DNA of 64,000 nt from positions 62,001 to 126,000 of the forward strand of contig CANGPN010000008.1 in assembly GCA_947456305.1 (NCBI GenBank), given 5' to 3'. The translations under genes and the position numbers were made by a program. The DNA comes from Comamonadaceae bacterium (GTDB lineage: Bacteria; Pseudomonadota; Gammaproteobacteria; Burkholderiales; Burkholderiaceae_C). Shown here one piece after another: positions 28,938 through 33,111 of this stretch. The notes under the pieces are model-generated. The model did not search any database. It had not been told where the DNA came from and was given only the letters and a program-made list of their open reading frames with translations. Within the stretch, counting starts at the first letter, position 1. The number at the start of each line of letters is the position of its first letter.

Positions 28938-30371
28938 ATGCCACACCACGCTACCAAAATCGTCGCCACTCTGGGGCCCGCTTCTAGCGATCCCGCCATC
29001 CTCGAAGCCATGATTCGCGCCGGGGTCAACGTGGTGCGGCTCAATTTCAGTCACGGTAAAGCGCAAGACCATGTGGACCGAGCCACGCTGGTGCGCGAAG
29101 CCGCCAAGCGCGCGGGTCGCGTGGTCGCCATCATGGCTGATTTACAAGGCCCGAAGATTCGTGTCGGTAAATTCGCCGAAGGCAAGGTTGATTTGCAAGC
29201 AGGTGCGGCATTCATTCTGGATGCCTCGCGCACCGAACCCGGCGACATACACGGTGTCGGTCTGGATTACAAAGAGTTGCCGCGCGATGTGAAGGCCGGT
29301 GATTTGTTGTTGCTCAATGACGGTTTGATTGTGCTGACTGTCGACAAAGTGCAAGGCGAGCAAGTGCACACCACCGTGAAAATGGGCGGCGAGTTGTCAA
29401 ACAACAAAGGCATCAACAAACAAGGCGGCGGTCTGACCGCACCTGCGCTGACCGGCAAAGACATGGAAGACATCAAAACCGCCATGTCTTTCCAAGCCGA
29501 CTATGTGGCGGTGAGTTTTCCGAAAAACGCCACCGACATGGAAATGGCGCGCCAGTTGTGCAACGTGGCCGCCGAGCCGTTCAAACACAAACCGGGTTTG
29601 ATCGCCAAGATAGAGCGGTTTGAAGCCATTCCGCATTTAGAAGAAATCCTGCGCGCCTCCGACGGCATCATGGTCGCTCGCGGCGATCTGGCGGTGGAAG
29701 TCGGTAACGCCGCCGTGCCCGCTTTGCAAAAACGCATGATCAAACTCGCGCGTGAAATGGACAAAGTCGCCATCACCGCCACGCAAATGATGGAGAGCAT
29801 GATCACCAACCCGGTGCCCACCCGCGCCGAAGTCAGCGACGTGGCCAACGCCGTGCTCGACGGCACCGATGCGGTCATGCTGAGCGCAGAAACCGCAGTC
29901 GGCAAATACCCGCTGGAAACGGTAGAGCAAATGGTGCAAATCTGCTCTGCCGCTGAAGACGCCGAAGAGGTGGCGCTGGACGCCGATTTCACCGGCAAAA
30001 CATTCACTTACATCGACCAGACCATTGCCATGGGCGCGTTGTTCACCGCGCATCACTTAGGTGCCAAAGCCATCGTCGCTTTGACTGACTCGGGTTCAAC
30101 GCCTTTGTGGATGAGCCGCCACCGCATACATATTCCGATTTACGCACTCACCACCCGCGAAAACACACAACGCCGCATGGCGCTGTACCGCAATGTGCAT
30201 GCGCTGCTCATGGACACCAGCACCGACCGCGACACCGCGCTGAACCAGGCCGAACACCATCTGAAATCGCGCGGCATCGTGGACCAAGGCGATGTGTATG
30301 CCATCACTTGCGGCGAACCCATGGGTTCACCCGGCGGCACCAATATGCTCAAGATATGTAAGGTGGGATAA
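28938..30371 (+). CDS. pyk: Pyruvate kinase
   Basis: Last glycolytic step, making pyruvate and ATP from phosphoenolpyruvate. Motifs: TKIVATLGPASSDP, GVNVVRLNFSHG, MADLQGPKIRVG, LIAKIERFEAI, the active-site MVARGDLAVEVG and the metal/K+ region TQMMESMI, then the C-terminal domain. Start ATG 28938 gives MPHHATKIV and 477 residues, normal for the family. Its last 23 bases overlap the end of the anti-sigma gene on the other strand. Confidence 0.96.
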   Translation: MPHHATKIVATLGPASSDPAILEAMIRAGVNVVRLNFSHGKAQDHVDRATLVREAAKRAGRVVAIMADLQGPKIRVGKFAEGKVDLQAGAAFILDASRTEPGDIHGVGLDYKELPRDVKAGDLLLLNDGLIVLTVDKVQGEQVHTTVKMGGELSNNKGINKQGGGLTAPALTGKDMEDIKTAMSFQADYVAVSFPKNATDMEMARQLCNVAAEPFKHKPGLIAKIERFEAIPHLEEILRASDGIMVARGDLAVEVGNAAVPALQKRMIKLAREMDKVAITATQMMESMITNPVPTRAEVSDVANAVLDGTDAVMLSAETAVGKYPLETVEQMVQICSAAEDAEEVALDADFTGKTFTYIDQTIAMGALFTAHHLGAKAIVALTDSGSTPLWMSRHRIHIPIYALTTRENTQRRMALYRNVHALLMDTSTDRDTALNQAEHHLKSRGIVDQGDVYAITCGEPMGSPGGTNMLKICKVG

Positions 30372-30552
30372 GCACCGCTTTGTCGGCTTGGCATTGTGCT
30401 TTCACAGCTTGCATCAACGCGGCATCTTTTTTCGTGAAGACGCGACAGTTACTGCAAATCAAGTGATGCCAACGGGCTTGCAGTCTCAGACCCGGTCCAG
30501 CGTCTGGCAGTTGGTCTGAGGTCAATAAAAAAATATATTGCCGGCACTTCAT
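30349..30552 (-). CDS. Small zinc-finger anti-sigma factor (zf-HC2 type), last gene of the MNIO operon
   Basis: Protein of 67 residues. It begins MKCRQYIFLLTSDQL and has a histidine-Cys-Cys cluster in RWHHLICSNCRVF, matching the Cys-x-His-x3-Cys-x2-Cys layout of ZAS/zf-HC2 anti-sigma domains. There is no membrane segment, so it would act in the cytoplasm, unlike the six-helix NrsF proteins I know from bufferin operons. Its ATG overlaps the sigma factor stop by four bases (ATGA). The 3' end runs 23 bp into pyk tail to tail. A zinc or thiol switch that responds to metal or oxidants is likely but inferred. Confidence 0.72.
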   Translation of the reverse strand: MKCRQYIFLLTSDQLPDAGPGLRLQARWHHLICSNCRVFTKKDAALMQAVKAQCQADKAVLIPPYIS

Positions 30553-31118
30553 AGCGAGTTAACTCCTGCAATCCCTTGCTGTGCGAGGCATAGCTGCAAC
30601 TGCTTACGCGCACGGCTCATGCACTGCCAATAATCAGATTTGTTCAATTGCAAGGCTTCGCAAATCTCTTGCGCTTCAAATTCCAAAAACGCTTTCATGC
30701 TGAATACCCGGGCGATTTTGTCCGGCAAATGATTGACACATGCATCCACCAAAGCCAAGAACTGGTTGTTTTGCAAACGCAACTCCGGTGAATTCCAAGT
30801 GCGCGGTGCATTCGCCGGTTCCCAGTGCCCGCCTGGCTCGAATAAGGCTTCATCAAGCTCATCGTCTTGCTGAGGGCAGGTATAAGCGGCTTGCCGATAG
30901 CGCTGTCGCAAAGCATCTGCAATTTTGTATTTCAACACCCCGAATACATACATGCGCGGGTCTACAGCCTCTGCAAAAGCTTGCGGTGCCTCCAGCAAAG
31001 CCAACAGCGCTTGTTGCACCGTGTCCTCGGCTATCTCGCGCGGCTGAATCAGCCGCATGGCCAGTTGCAGCATGGGCCCTCTGCAATGTGTGAGTAATTG
31101 CTGGATATCCACCTTCAT
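30549..31118 (-). CDS. ECF-family RNA polymerase sigma factor
   Basis: Protein of 189 residues with region 2 (AEDTVQQALLALLEAPQAF and YVFGVLKYKIADALRQRYRQ) and region 4 (NHLPDKIARVFSMKAFLEFE, ICEALQLNKSDYWQCMSRAR). These are the two DNA-binding domains of extracytoplasmic-function sigma factors. ATG 31118 lies four bases after the DoxX stop; the longer frame upstream enters DoxX. Its partner anti-sigma overlaps its 3' end. It very probably drives this operon from a promoter before the precursor gene, as in related systems. Confidence 0.88.
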   Translation of the reverse strand: MKVDIQQLLTHCRGPMLQLAMRLIQPREIAEDTVQQALLALLEAPQAFAEAVDPRMYVFGVLKYKIADALRQRYRQAAYTCPQQDDELDEALFEPGGHWEPANAPRTWNSPELRLQNNQFLALVDACVNHLPDKIARVFSMKAFLEFEAQEICEALQLNKSDYWQCMSRARKQLQLCLAQQGIAGVNSL

Positions 31119-31122
31119 CCCT

Positions 31123-31560
31123 TCAGTGCCCCGGTCCGTCACGCTTGAACATACCATCGAGTGACCACTCGCCTGCCCCGTTTGCGGCCAGTATGAAAAG
31201 CATCAAGCCCATCATCAATGGCACTTTGAATCCGTTGCCCGCATCTGTCTCAATCAGCCGCCACCCCGCCCAGCCTAAATCGAAGTGCACCGTATAGACA
31301 GCGACATAAGTGATGAACAGCAATCCCAAGGCCGCCATGCGTGTGAAGATACCCGCAACCAGCGCCAGCCCGAAAAGCAATTCGCCATAACTGGCTGCCA
31401 GCCAATTCAACTGCGGGCCCAGCCAGATCAACGGCCATGGAAAGTCCAATGTCGCAAACCAAGAAGGCGGATGCATGCCTGACATCAATTTTTGAAATGC
31501 CGCATACAAAAACTCCTGCGCCAGCCAAAGACGCAGCAGAAGTATCGACATGTTTTGCAT
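31123..31560 (-). CDS. DoxX-family membrane protein
   Basis: Inner-membrane protein of 145 residues with four helices (ILLLRLWLAQEFLYAAFQKL, ASYGELLFGLALVAGI, AALGLLFITYVAVYTV, PLMMGLMLFILAAN). It matches the DoxX family, which often accompanies DUF692 and DUF2063 genes and may serve electron or thiol-redox transfer. ATG 31560 follows the DUF2063 stop by four bases and precedes the first helix; the longer frame to 31617 would overlap the upstream gene. In bufferin-type operons this is the D gene. Confidence 0.85.
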   Translation of the reverse strand: MQNMSILLLRLWLAQEFLYAAFQKLMSGMHPPSWFATLDFPWPLIWLGPQLNWLAASYGELLFGLALVAGIFTRMAALGLLFITYVAVYTVHFDLGWAGWRLIETDAGNGFKVPLMMGLMLFILAANGAGEWSLDGMFKRDGPGH

Positions 31561-31564
31561 TGGC

Positions 31565-31837
31565 TTATGCCGTGACTCGCGCCAAATATGTTTGAAATTC
31601 ATTGTCCAAATCCCCATAAAAATGCGATGTCCATGCAGATTGCTTGACGAAATCCTCTATCAATTCAACCCATGCTGACTCACCCAATTGCTCACGCAGA
31701 GCGGGAAAAGAGGCACTCACCATTTGACTGGCGCCCAACCACACAAGATAGCGGTAGACCTGAAGGCCGCGCAACTCATAACCGTCAGGCACCTCGTCAC
31801 AGCGCCCTCTTACGTAGTCGAAAAATGCCGCAGACAT
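31565..31837 (-). CDS. Minimal DUF2063 protein (HvfC/BufC-like), 90 aa
   Basis: Begins MSAAFFDYVRGRCDEVPDGY; then RGLQVYRYLVWLGASQMVSASFP and AWVELIEDFV, the N-terminal DUF2063 domain that partners MNIO enzymes. Known HvfC/BufC proteins are about 250 residues with a second domain; this one ends after the first. The gene overlaps the 3' end of the DUF692 gene by 28 bases, so it is cotranslated with it. A shorter C protein would still fit the role of presenting the peptide to the enzyme, but this is inferred. No frameshift is visible that would have cut it. Confidence 0.8.
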   Translation of the reverse strand: MSAAFFDYVRGRCDEVPDGYELRGLQVYRYLVWLGASQMVSASFPALREQLGESAWVELIEDFVKQSAWTSHFYGDLDNEFQTYLARVTA

Positions 31838-32592
31838 GACAACTCCCGCTGTAAGACTTCTTCTGTGGGTATATCGTTGTCCCACTCCATCAACACATCC
31901 AGTCCATGGGACTGTTGCAGTTGCCCTGCCATCAGCGCGGTGTCTGGCTCAACCGGTTGGCTGTGGGTATCGATGAACATGCCAAAGCGCGCATCAAATT
32001 CATGGCCGGCCACATGCAAATAACTGACCTTGGATATATCAATGCGGCTGACAAAATCCGGCAGACTGATCAAGCCGTGGTTTTTGTGGTTCACCGCCAC
32101 ATTGTTGAGGTCCAACAGCAAGTTGCAATCTGCACGTTCGATGACGGCTGAGATGAATTCAAGCTCATCCATGCTTCCCCGATTGGTATACCAAGTGGTG
32201 TTTTCCACGGCGATGCGGCAGGCCAAGCGTTCTTGCACTTCTTGAATCCGGTCACTGACCCGAATCACTTCGGCTTGGGTCAGTTCAATCGGAAACAAAT
32301 CGTAGAGTTGATGCGCGTCCCCGCTGGCGGCCAGATGGTCCGAAAAAAAGGGGGTTTGCAATTCATCCATGAGTTGACGCACCGAGGCAAGGTACGCCTT
32401 GTTCAATGCAGATGTCCCGCCCAGGTTGAGCGAGACCGCATGAAGCCGGACAGATATGCCTTGGCAAATCAGGTCATGCAGGGCTTGGCGGTCGCGTCTC
32501 AGCCAATTCTCAGCGACCACCTCGACAAAATCGATCGGCAAGCCGGCCATGTCCCATGTGTGCATTTCTTTTCGATAGCCGACACCTAGCAT
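31810..32592 (-). CDS. DUF692 multinuclear non-haem iron oxidase (MNIO)
   Basis: TIM-barrel enzyme of 260 residues. The metal-binding side chains of the family are visible along the barrel: His51 (RLHAVSLNLGG), His86 (FFSDHLA), Glu130/Asn131 (AVENTTWY), Asp161/Asn163 (LLLDLNNVAVN), His193 and His197 (YLHVAGHE), Asp208 and His210 (FIDTHSQPV), Glu236 (LMEWDND). MNIO enzymes oxidise Cys (or Asp) side chains of a small peptide to oxazolone/thioamide or thio-oxazole groups. ATG 32592 has AAGGAG eight bases upstream. The peptide gene lies 34 bp before it and the DUF2063 partner overlaps its end. Confidence 0.93.
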   Translation of the reverse strand: MLGVGYRKEMHTWDMAGLPIDFVEVVAENWLRRDRQALHDLICQGISVRLHAVSLNLGGTSALNKAYLASVRQLMDELQTPFFSDHLAASGDAHQLYDLFPIELTQAEVIRVSDRIQEVQERLACRIAVENTTWYTNRGSMDELEFISAVIERADCNLLLDLNNVAVNHKNHGLISLPDFVSRIDISKVSYLHVAGHEFDARFGMFIDTHSQPVEPDTALMAGQLQQSHGLDVLMEWDNDIPTEEVLQRELSCLRHFSTT

Positions 32593-32626
32593 GGCCGCGC
32601 TCCTTTTCTATGCATTCGAAATTGTT

Positions 32627-32872
32627 TTATTTCTTATCGCCAGTTGTTTCCTTTTGGGTGCCCGTTTCTTTCTTGGCGCAGCTTGCTTCTTTCTTAGAAC
32701 AGCTGCTTTCCTTTTTAGAACAGCTTGCGTCTTTCTTAGAGCAGCTGGCTTGTTTGGCCTCTTTCTTACTGCAAGAGCCTGCGCCGCAACTTTTTTCGGG
32801 CTTATCTTGTGCCAAAACAGCACTGGAGGCGATGAGGGTGGAGGCCAAAATAGCGATGGATTTGATGTTCAT
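32627..32872 (-). CDS. Secreted Cys/Lys-rich peptide, likely MNIO substrate (bufferin/HvfA-like precursor)
   Basis: Protein of 81 residues with a signal peptide (IAILASTLIASSAVLA, cleavage after Ala21). The mature part is made almost only of Cys, Ser, Lys, Glu, Ala and Thr: Cys29 and Cys34 (SCGAGSC), then Cys44, 51, 58 and 65 spaced exactly seven apart in SC(S/A)KK(D/E) units. Known MNIO precursors use EGKCG repeats or paired Cys in DUF2282 proteins; these heptads differ. AAGGA lies eight bases before the ATG. It heads the operon; the enzyme gene is 34 bp downstream. Metal (copper) binding after modification is inferred from related systems. Confidence 0.82.
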   Translation of the reverse strand: MNIKSIAILASTLIASSAVLAQDKPEKSCGAGSCSKKEAKQASCSKKDASCSKKESSCSKKEASCAKKETGTQKETTGDKK

Positions 32873-32929
32873 GGTCAGTTTCCTTAGGTTGATGACAAAA
32901 AGTGTGTTGTTTCAATAGACACAATCTGT

Positions 32930-32965
32930 CAGTCGTTGACCTGCACTGAATCCTGACAAAATTTT
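32930..32965 (-). promoter_or_regulatory. Candidate sigma-factor promoter of the MNIO operon
   Basis: On the minus strand TGTCAGGATT (bases 32949-32958) lies about 80 bp before the precursor start and resembles the -35 box of some ECF promoters; no certain -10 box follows. A T-rich stretch flanks it upstream. Assignment by eye only. Confidence 0.25.
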
Positions 32966-33111
32966 TCGCCTTTTTTATCGACTTTCAATTTTTTCAACCT
33001 GTGTTTAAACCGGATTTAACTCTCATTAATTTCAGCGTCCCCTAGAATCGACGTGCTTTCATGCCCAAGCGGCTTCTCTCAGGCATTTTTAACTTCACTG
33101 GACAGACAACC

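Follow-up and report, generated by a model that had tools for sequence, protein, structure and literature searches.

A captophorin/oxazolin-like MNIO operon with a DUF2063-only partner and an ECF sigma/anti-sigma pair in a Comamonadaceae bacterium

What is made, and under which control, by a compact gene cluster that combines a Cys-rich peptide, an oxidase and a sigma factor? The question is raised by a window of 64,000 nucleotides (the whole stretch that was analysed; contig CANGPN010000008.1, positions 62,001 to 126,000) from the Comamonadaceae bacterium assembly GCA_947456305.1. On its minus strand, at 30349-32872, six tightly packed genes follow each other in the order precursor peptide, MNIO, DUF2063 protein, DoxX, extracytoplasmic function (ECF) sigma factor and anti-sigma factor. 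All were found where the original prediction had placed them, and profile scans assign five of the six to families, the precursor being the exception. These scans also support the earlier reading of the cluster as an MNIO operon for a ribosomally synthesized and post-translationally modified peptide (RiPP). The operon resembles the captophorin/oxazolin systems, and its control is probably like that of Neisseria sigmaE-MseR. We consider it likely that it is a captophorin/oxazolin-type RiPP operon for a copper-buffering, modified Cys-rich periplasmic peptide, wired as a positive-feedback stress cassette by the ECF sigma factor and a zinc-type (ZAS) anti-sigma factor. Metal buffering, as proposed before, is probable, while copper as the metal, the modification of Cys residues and the inducer are what we infer.

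The events may be pictured as follows. In the cytoplasm, the MNIO, activated by a partner consisting of DUF2063 only, would oxidize Cys residues in the precursor repeats, probably to 5-thiooxazoles. The modified peptide would be exported by Sec to the periplasm, where it may chelate Cu(I) or related thiophilic metals, and DoxX would act in the membrane, either in redox chemistry or in handling. All six genes, that of the ECF sigma factor among them, would be transcribed by this factor from a single promoter before the precursor gene. The ZAS anti-sigma factor would hold the sigma factor until a cytoplasmic thiol-oxidizing or metal signal frees it, and such a release would turn the operon into a positive-feedback stress cassette.

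The central enzyme belongs to the MNIO superfamily (PF05114, E 8.6e-68, 228.9 bits, cut-off 25). We take its metal ligands to be H51, H86, E130, D161, H193, H197, D208, H210 and E236. For seven of them (H51, H86, E130, D161, H193, D208 and H210) the structures 3BWW, 8HCI and 7DZ9 have the identical residue at the aligned position; for H197 this holds in 3BWW alone, and for E236 in 3BWW and 8HCI, the alignment to 7DZ9 stopping short of that position. All nine are invariant across 16 members of the clade described below, in agreement with the earlier claim of a DUF692 enzyme with all its metal ligands. The clade's own MNIO is the only one detected in 13 of the 16 genomes. In one relative (L014) the opposite strand encodes, about 2 kb away from the operon, another DUF692-like protein that is only remotely similar (26% identity; 481-aa frame, L014:1731-3176). 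The DoxX protein matches PF07681 (E 1.7e-15) and scores 75.2 bits, under the cut-off of 80, with the HvfX family NF050144; its conserved start is probably the ATG at 31602. The sigma factor most likely begins with the ATG at 31118. The sigma and anti-sigma genes share a 4-nt overlap, and the MNIO stop and partner start overlap by 28 nt, taking the conserved ATG at 31837 for the partner.

Table 1. Coordinates of the operon, its genes and associated features in the window
Feature	Position	Strand	Basis
ECF-type promoter GTCAGGATT-N13-CGAC, upstream of precursor gene	32932..32957	-	promoter comparison across loci
RiPP precursor, 81 aa, Sec-type signal peptide, six Cys	32627..32872	-	sequence, homologues
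Predicted signal peptide, about 21 aa	32810..32872	-	read by eye from sequence
Cys core SCGAGSCSKKE, then repeats around SC(S/A)KK; last four Cys spaced 7 residues	32669..32791	-	
MNIO (DUF692, MbnB_TglH_ChrH) oxidase, 260 aa	31810..32592	-	profile scans, structure alignments, clade alignment
DUF2063-only partner, 90 aa, without C-terminal RRE-type domain	31565..31837	-	profile scans, model
DoxX / HvfX-like membrane protein	31123..31617	-	profile scans, clade alignment
ECF sigma factor, TIGR02943 family	30549..31118	-	profile scan, Neisseria comparison
ZAS (zinc-type) anti-sigma, 67 aa, C3 / H29-x3-C33-x2-C36	30349..30552	-	sequence, clade alignment
Insertion: stretch absent from pyk-fba interval of nearest relative examined	30368..33085	.	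genome alignment

Is this gene set more than a chance neighbourhood? A scan of 84,980 species genomes, which used exact short peptides and therefore reaches close relatives only, retrieved 11 loci with MNIOs at 57-63% identity: three Aquabacterium and two Burkholderiales metagenome-assembled genomes, Bordetella trematum, four Comamonas and one Thauera. Ten of the 11 contain the six genes in the same order. Of 399 sampled genomes of the order, five had a match at E <= 1e-55, the own one included, and the other four came from four other families. In the 7 kb fetched around each of these four, one locus has the six genes, one has four together with a divergent SigF/NrsF pair, and the remaining two have four and three genes, with no sigma gene seen within that distance. 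The complete set thus occurs in the same order at 12 of the 16 loci, window included, although near copies (L019/L020, L014/L017 and the four Comamonas) make the independent observations fewer. Because the order recurs in ten of 11 and in one of four loci, the set is more than chance, and the conserved gene pairing on which the original prediction had staked its case is indeed found. The search of the precursor and DUF692 protein against genomes and MNIO families, also proposed there, yielded these related loci and did not reach the HvfA, HvfB and BufB models.

The six-gene set is not new. The Neisseria sigmaE operon (NMB2140-NMB2145 / NGO1948-NGO1943), its gene families read from the gonococcal locus, has the same six: DoxX, precursor, MNIO, DUF2063, an ECF sigma above the TIGR02943 cut-off and a ZAS anti-sigma. 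However, DoxX comes first, the partner combines DUF2063 with NGO1945_C, and EGKCG repeats are found in the precursor. The meningococcal version is autoregulated under the ZAS anti-sigma MseR (PMC2893595), and the gonococcal product, gonophorin, carries 5-thiooxazoles (PMC13097082). The Haemophilus hvf (oxazolin) cluster shares the precursor, MNIO, DUF2063 protein and DoxX, and RpoE2 of H. influenzae with its 67-aa cytoplasmic anti-sigma HrsE was studied jointly with the homologous DoxX/MNIO cluster (PMC7907618); there, however, the sigma pair is encoded elsewhere, HvfC has an RRE domain and the repeats are AEGKCGEGKCG. In Cupriavidus metallidurans, gigPABT/rpoQ-rsqA combines precursor, MNIO, DUF2063 and DoxX with an adjoining ECF sigma/anti-sigma pair, but the sigma genes are divergent, RsqA is predicted to be membrane-bound, GigP is of the DUF2282 type and GigB has 258 aa. 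Caulobacter sigF-CC3252 (nrsF) with CC3254-CC3257 has the same core genes and an autoregulated ECF sigma, but a NrsF-type membrane regulator, a GTAACC-N16-CGAA promoter, a DUF2282 precursor and a 254-aa partner; this type of control pair, SigF/NrsF, is present at two of the 16 loci of the present clade.

The original prediction had seen the operon set apart by its precursor type, its short DUF2063 protein and its anti-sigma class. The first two hold; the third does not, since small anti-sigmas are published for the same-family operon of N. meningitidis (the ZAS protein MseR) and for H. influenzae (HrsE). Judged from sequence comparison, the operon type differs from the known systems in its DUF2063-only partner, CSKK repeats, Asn at the reported specificity site (15 of 16 clade members) and GTCAGGAWT-N13-CGAC promoter. 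As it does not pass the HvfB, BufB, HvfA-motif and full PME1 tests, it is a variant rather than an ordinary member. No description of the short-partner clade was found in open-licence papers without their supplements, in searches that were not aimed at the exact combination, and published precursor lists may already include CSKK.

The control genes are close to those of Neisseria. The sigma factor scores 167.2 bits with TIGR02943 (cut-off 162.2) and shares 40% identity over 154 aa with its counterpart in the homologous Neisseria operon. The anti-sigma matches NF052368 alone and weakly, with 25.9 bits against a cut-off of 50 (25.5 for clade member L016, 73.7 for the Neisseria control); comparison with the Neisseria counterpart gives E 8e-6. 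It has the characters of an MseR-type ZAS protein: H-x3-C-x2-C, a Cys 26 residues before the His and no transmembrane segment (the latter by eye). C3, H29, C33 and C36 are invariant in all 12 clade anti-sigmas and equal in spacing to C4/H30/C34/C37 of MseR, in which Cys34 is indispensable and Cys4 and Cys37 are also of importance (PMC2893595).

Predicted self-control finds support in the promoter region. GTCAGGAWT-N13-CGAC lies 5' of the precursor gene at all 12 sigma/ZAS loci (with one mismatch in L022) and at none of the four loci without the pair, where the best scores are 8, 8, 8 and 9 of 13; none of 1000 first-order Markov resamples per locus equalled the promoter score. The pattern was fixed after viewing these sequences, the Neisseria motif having given the lead, and in L015 and L063 the uncertain start codon of the precursor also leaves the promoter distance uncertain. 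The element is close to the published meningococcal sigmaE promoter (GTMAGBWTT, a 12-13 nt spacer, CGTCTAAH; PMC2893595), and the gonococcal locus reads GTCAGTTTT-N12-CGTCTAA. SigF/NrsF replaces sigma/ZAS in two of the four ZAS-less loci, Thauera and G488, as a divergent pair beside the core operon (L018:3422-4599 and L064:4430-5607, respectively). By eye, the Thauera upstream region contains the exact published sigmaF site GTAACC-N16-CGAA, and the G488 locus has GTAACC, 16 nt and then CGTA. Therefore, sigma type and promoter type co-occur. On the tree, the ZAS label requires four changes, and label shuffles do equally well (500/500), so that no single origin or direction of sigma exchange is claimed.

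How far does this sigma factor reach, and to which stress would it respond? Defence against oxidants (hypochlorite or thiol stress) might come foremost, the modified Cys-rich peptide being a sacrificial or redox-active thiol buffer with metal binding as a secondary property. The ZAS anti-sigma RsrA senses thiol oxidation (PMC2893595), expression of H. influenzae rpoE2, studied jointly with a homologous cluster as mentioned above, goes up with HOCl and H2O2 (PMC7907618), and Neisseria sigmaE strongly controls msrAB. On the other hand, Cu binding is general among characterized MNIO-PME1 products (PMC13097082), the gig operon is induced by Cu and Au, and the window's genome offers no credible second target for the exact promoter pattern, msrAB for example, so that a wider sigma regulon was rejected. 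The pattern occurs there twice, against once for the reversed-pattern control, and the occurrence outside the operon lies at an unrelated locus, within an open frame of 172 aa on the opposite strand. The 11 relative genomes hold 27 matches, ten of which are the sites of the ten sigma-bearing operons; the other 17, not inspected singly, compare with 34 control matches. A primary role in oxidant defence thus appears rather unlikely, and copper buffering is preferred.

The substrate departs from known types. No Pfam family, and hence no DUF2282 (Buf1 bufferin) domain, matches the precursor at E up to 1, and the one NCBIfam match, the PtrA N-terminal domain, is weak (E 0.093, under the cut-off). 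The HvfA/oxazolin models NF050188 and NF050137 match neither this precursor nor two other clade precursors tested; a Neisseria and a same-genus precursor (L005), used as controls, exceed the cut-off of NF050137, the KCGExKCG motif model, and fall under that of NF050188. Since no model matched, membership in the bufferins (DUF2282) or HvfA was rejected. A precursor homologue is present 5' of the MNIO gene at all 15 related loci. The clade precursors have a signal-peptide-like start, usually KCGAG(S/T)CGKKE, and then repeats of the type (D/E)-x-x-C-(S/A)-K-K, with C-S-K-K units where Neisseria has EGKCG; the Cys does not directly precede a Lys, so there is no literal Cys-Lys. A gap of about 0.45 kb separates precursor and MNIO genes in the four Comamonas loci. 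It holds a small extra gene in the three inspected (L021, L022 and L024; for example L022:4641-4964), which is a DUF4148 gene in L022, the one scanned.

One site, Phe250 in FonB and Asp251 in BufB2, is reported to touch the substrate and to set specificity (PMC13097082). We located it through our own alignment to the gonococcal enzyme, which has Phe there; it is Asn in 15 of the 16 clade members and His in one. Given the differences in substrate repeat, specificity pocket and partner, the clade MNIO could make another modification, or act on other Cys positions, than the known thiooxazole enzymes. The CSKK repeats, the Asn or His and the failure to reach any NCBIfam equivalog would fit such a deviation; the invariance of the presumed ligands and the 36% identity shared with the MNIO of N. 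gonorrhoeae speak for the common chemistry. Moreover, 5-thiooxazole is installed in all characterized MNIO-PME1 cases (PMC13097082). We regard a different modification as improbable.

A thiooxazole-bearing, copper-buffering product under its own sigma factor nevertheless has to be weighed against several observations. The MNIO reaches 211.7 bits with the HvfB equivalog NF003818 (cut-off 360) and 197.1 bits with the BufB bufferin maturase NF050167 (cut-off 310), and its chemistry is thus not readable from those families. Two clade members (L016 and L066) likewise stay under 360, with 240.5 and 249.2 bits, while a Neisseria MNIO, the positive control, passes with 371.8. CSKK does not appear among the FonBC test motifs listed in the part of the source covered. 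The meningococcal regulon is reported not to be induced by H2O2, diamide or singlet oxygen (PMC2893595), and in C. metallidurans a deletion of rpoQ left gig expression undiminished, so that an operon of this kind is not necessarily driven by the ECF sigma encoded next to it.

What, then, does the short partner do? Its DUF2063 domain, diagnostic of a PME type 1 partner, is clear (PF09836, E 1.2e-11, 45.2 bits, cut-off 27.2), but the C-terminal RRE-type domain (NGO1945_C, PF22106), with which such proteins measure about 250-260 aa overall, is missing. The PME family is described as DUF2063 fused to a full or partial RRE, the latter being taken as the leader binder (PMC13419390); short DUF2063-related partners without RRE are reported generally for PME type 2, and type 1 as narrowly full length (PMC12452194). 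The start is placed at the ATG at 31837 because L064 and L066 have no upstream extension; a GTG further upstream, at 31885, would yield 106 aa. At all 16 loci the partner has 89-101 aa from the conserved start (Leu, not Met, in L063), DUF2063 without the RRE-type domain, and 24 invariant residues. A profile made from ten of these 16 proteins matches the N-terminal domain of NGO1945 (residues 22-93 of 249 in structure 3DEE; E 1.2e-5); the top Foldseek matches of the partner model (pLDDT 90.1), MbnC and 3DEE, are insignificant (E 2.2 and 2.7). DUF2063 and NGO1945_C occur together in all three full-length controls, taken from Neisseria and from two genomes of the same genus, and two clade partners scanned alongside carry DUF2063 alone. 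In 150 genomes of the order, the stop-to-stop frame measures 203 aa or longer for 104 of 106 DUF2063 matches, and both exceptions, of 97 and 127 aa, come from this clade.

An RRE partner borrowed from elsewhere in the window's genome is unlikely, since the MNIO is mostly the sole one, PF22106 is above its cut-off in none of the 16 clade genomes and the window's genome (86.9% complete) gives a single DUF2063 match. One sub-threshold PF22106 match, beside another MNIO, occurs in G400, and the model is imperfectly sensitive, as it misses a 264-aa DUF2063 frame in G166. Could the short protein instead be a useless remnant in a decaying operon with an unmodified peptide? The loss of a whole domain would suit this, as would the end branch of the window MNIO, which at 0.69 changes per column is the longest among the 16 clade members. 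However, its retention at every locus with so many invariant residues, the confident model, the sole MNIO in most of the genomes and six open frames make decay very improbable. A natural minimal MNIO holoenzyme is plausible, at slightly less than even odds: captophorin-like, it would have lost the RRE, so that a lone DUF2063 suffices, substrate choice would have shifted to a new Cys-x-Lys-Lys repeat recognized by an Asn-bearing pocket, and the ECF modules, with their own promoters, would be interchangeable.

The operon is a recent insertion between two housekeeping genes and was probably gained horizontally, entering between pyk and fba. Among 29 same-genus fba loci examined (own excluded; a subset of 39 other same-genus genomes with a match), 28 have pyk adjoining fba with no room for the operon, the alignment-end gaps being 7-136 nt in 27 and 837 nt in one; the 29th has no pyk within the stretch covered. 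With the closest relative, the alignment ends at window position 30367 and restarts at 33086, with 16 nt between them in that genome. The GC content is 51.7% in the operon versus 56.2% in the window. The stop codon of the anti-sigma gene falls within the 3' end of pyk, the convergent gene for pyruvate kinase (30349-30371), so that the last anti-sigma residues are encoded by antisense pyk sequence where the insertion meets its host. Vertical inheritance within the genus was rejected, because an MNIO at E <= 1e-20 occurs in only ten of 84 genomes of the genus, the own one among them, and those of the other nine are only 31-36% identical. These nine genomes (L003-L013) include clear DUF2063 matches in L005-L008, in frames of 223-282 aa. 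A plasmid origin was also rejected, as the MNIOs in 337 plasmid records, at least two of which are really N. gonorrhoeae chromosome-size records, are all under 60% identity.

If a minimal holoenzyme exists, it would separate the cofactor-tuning role of the partner from leader recognition, and sigma/ZAS and SigF/NrsF would be interchangeable control modules, each with its own promoter. A conserved lineage with DUF2063 alone makes the role of each partner domain directly testable. Furthermore, the clade adds another repeat type for mapping the substrate rules of MNIOs, and it offers a compact, probably self-regulated metal-buffering cassette.

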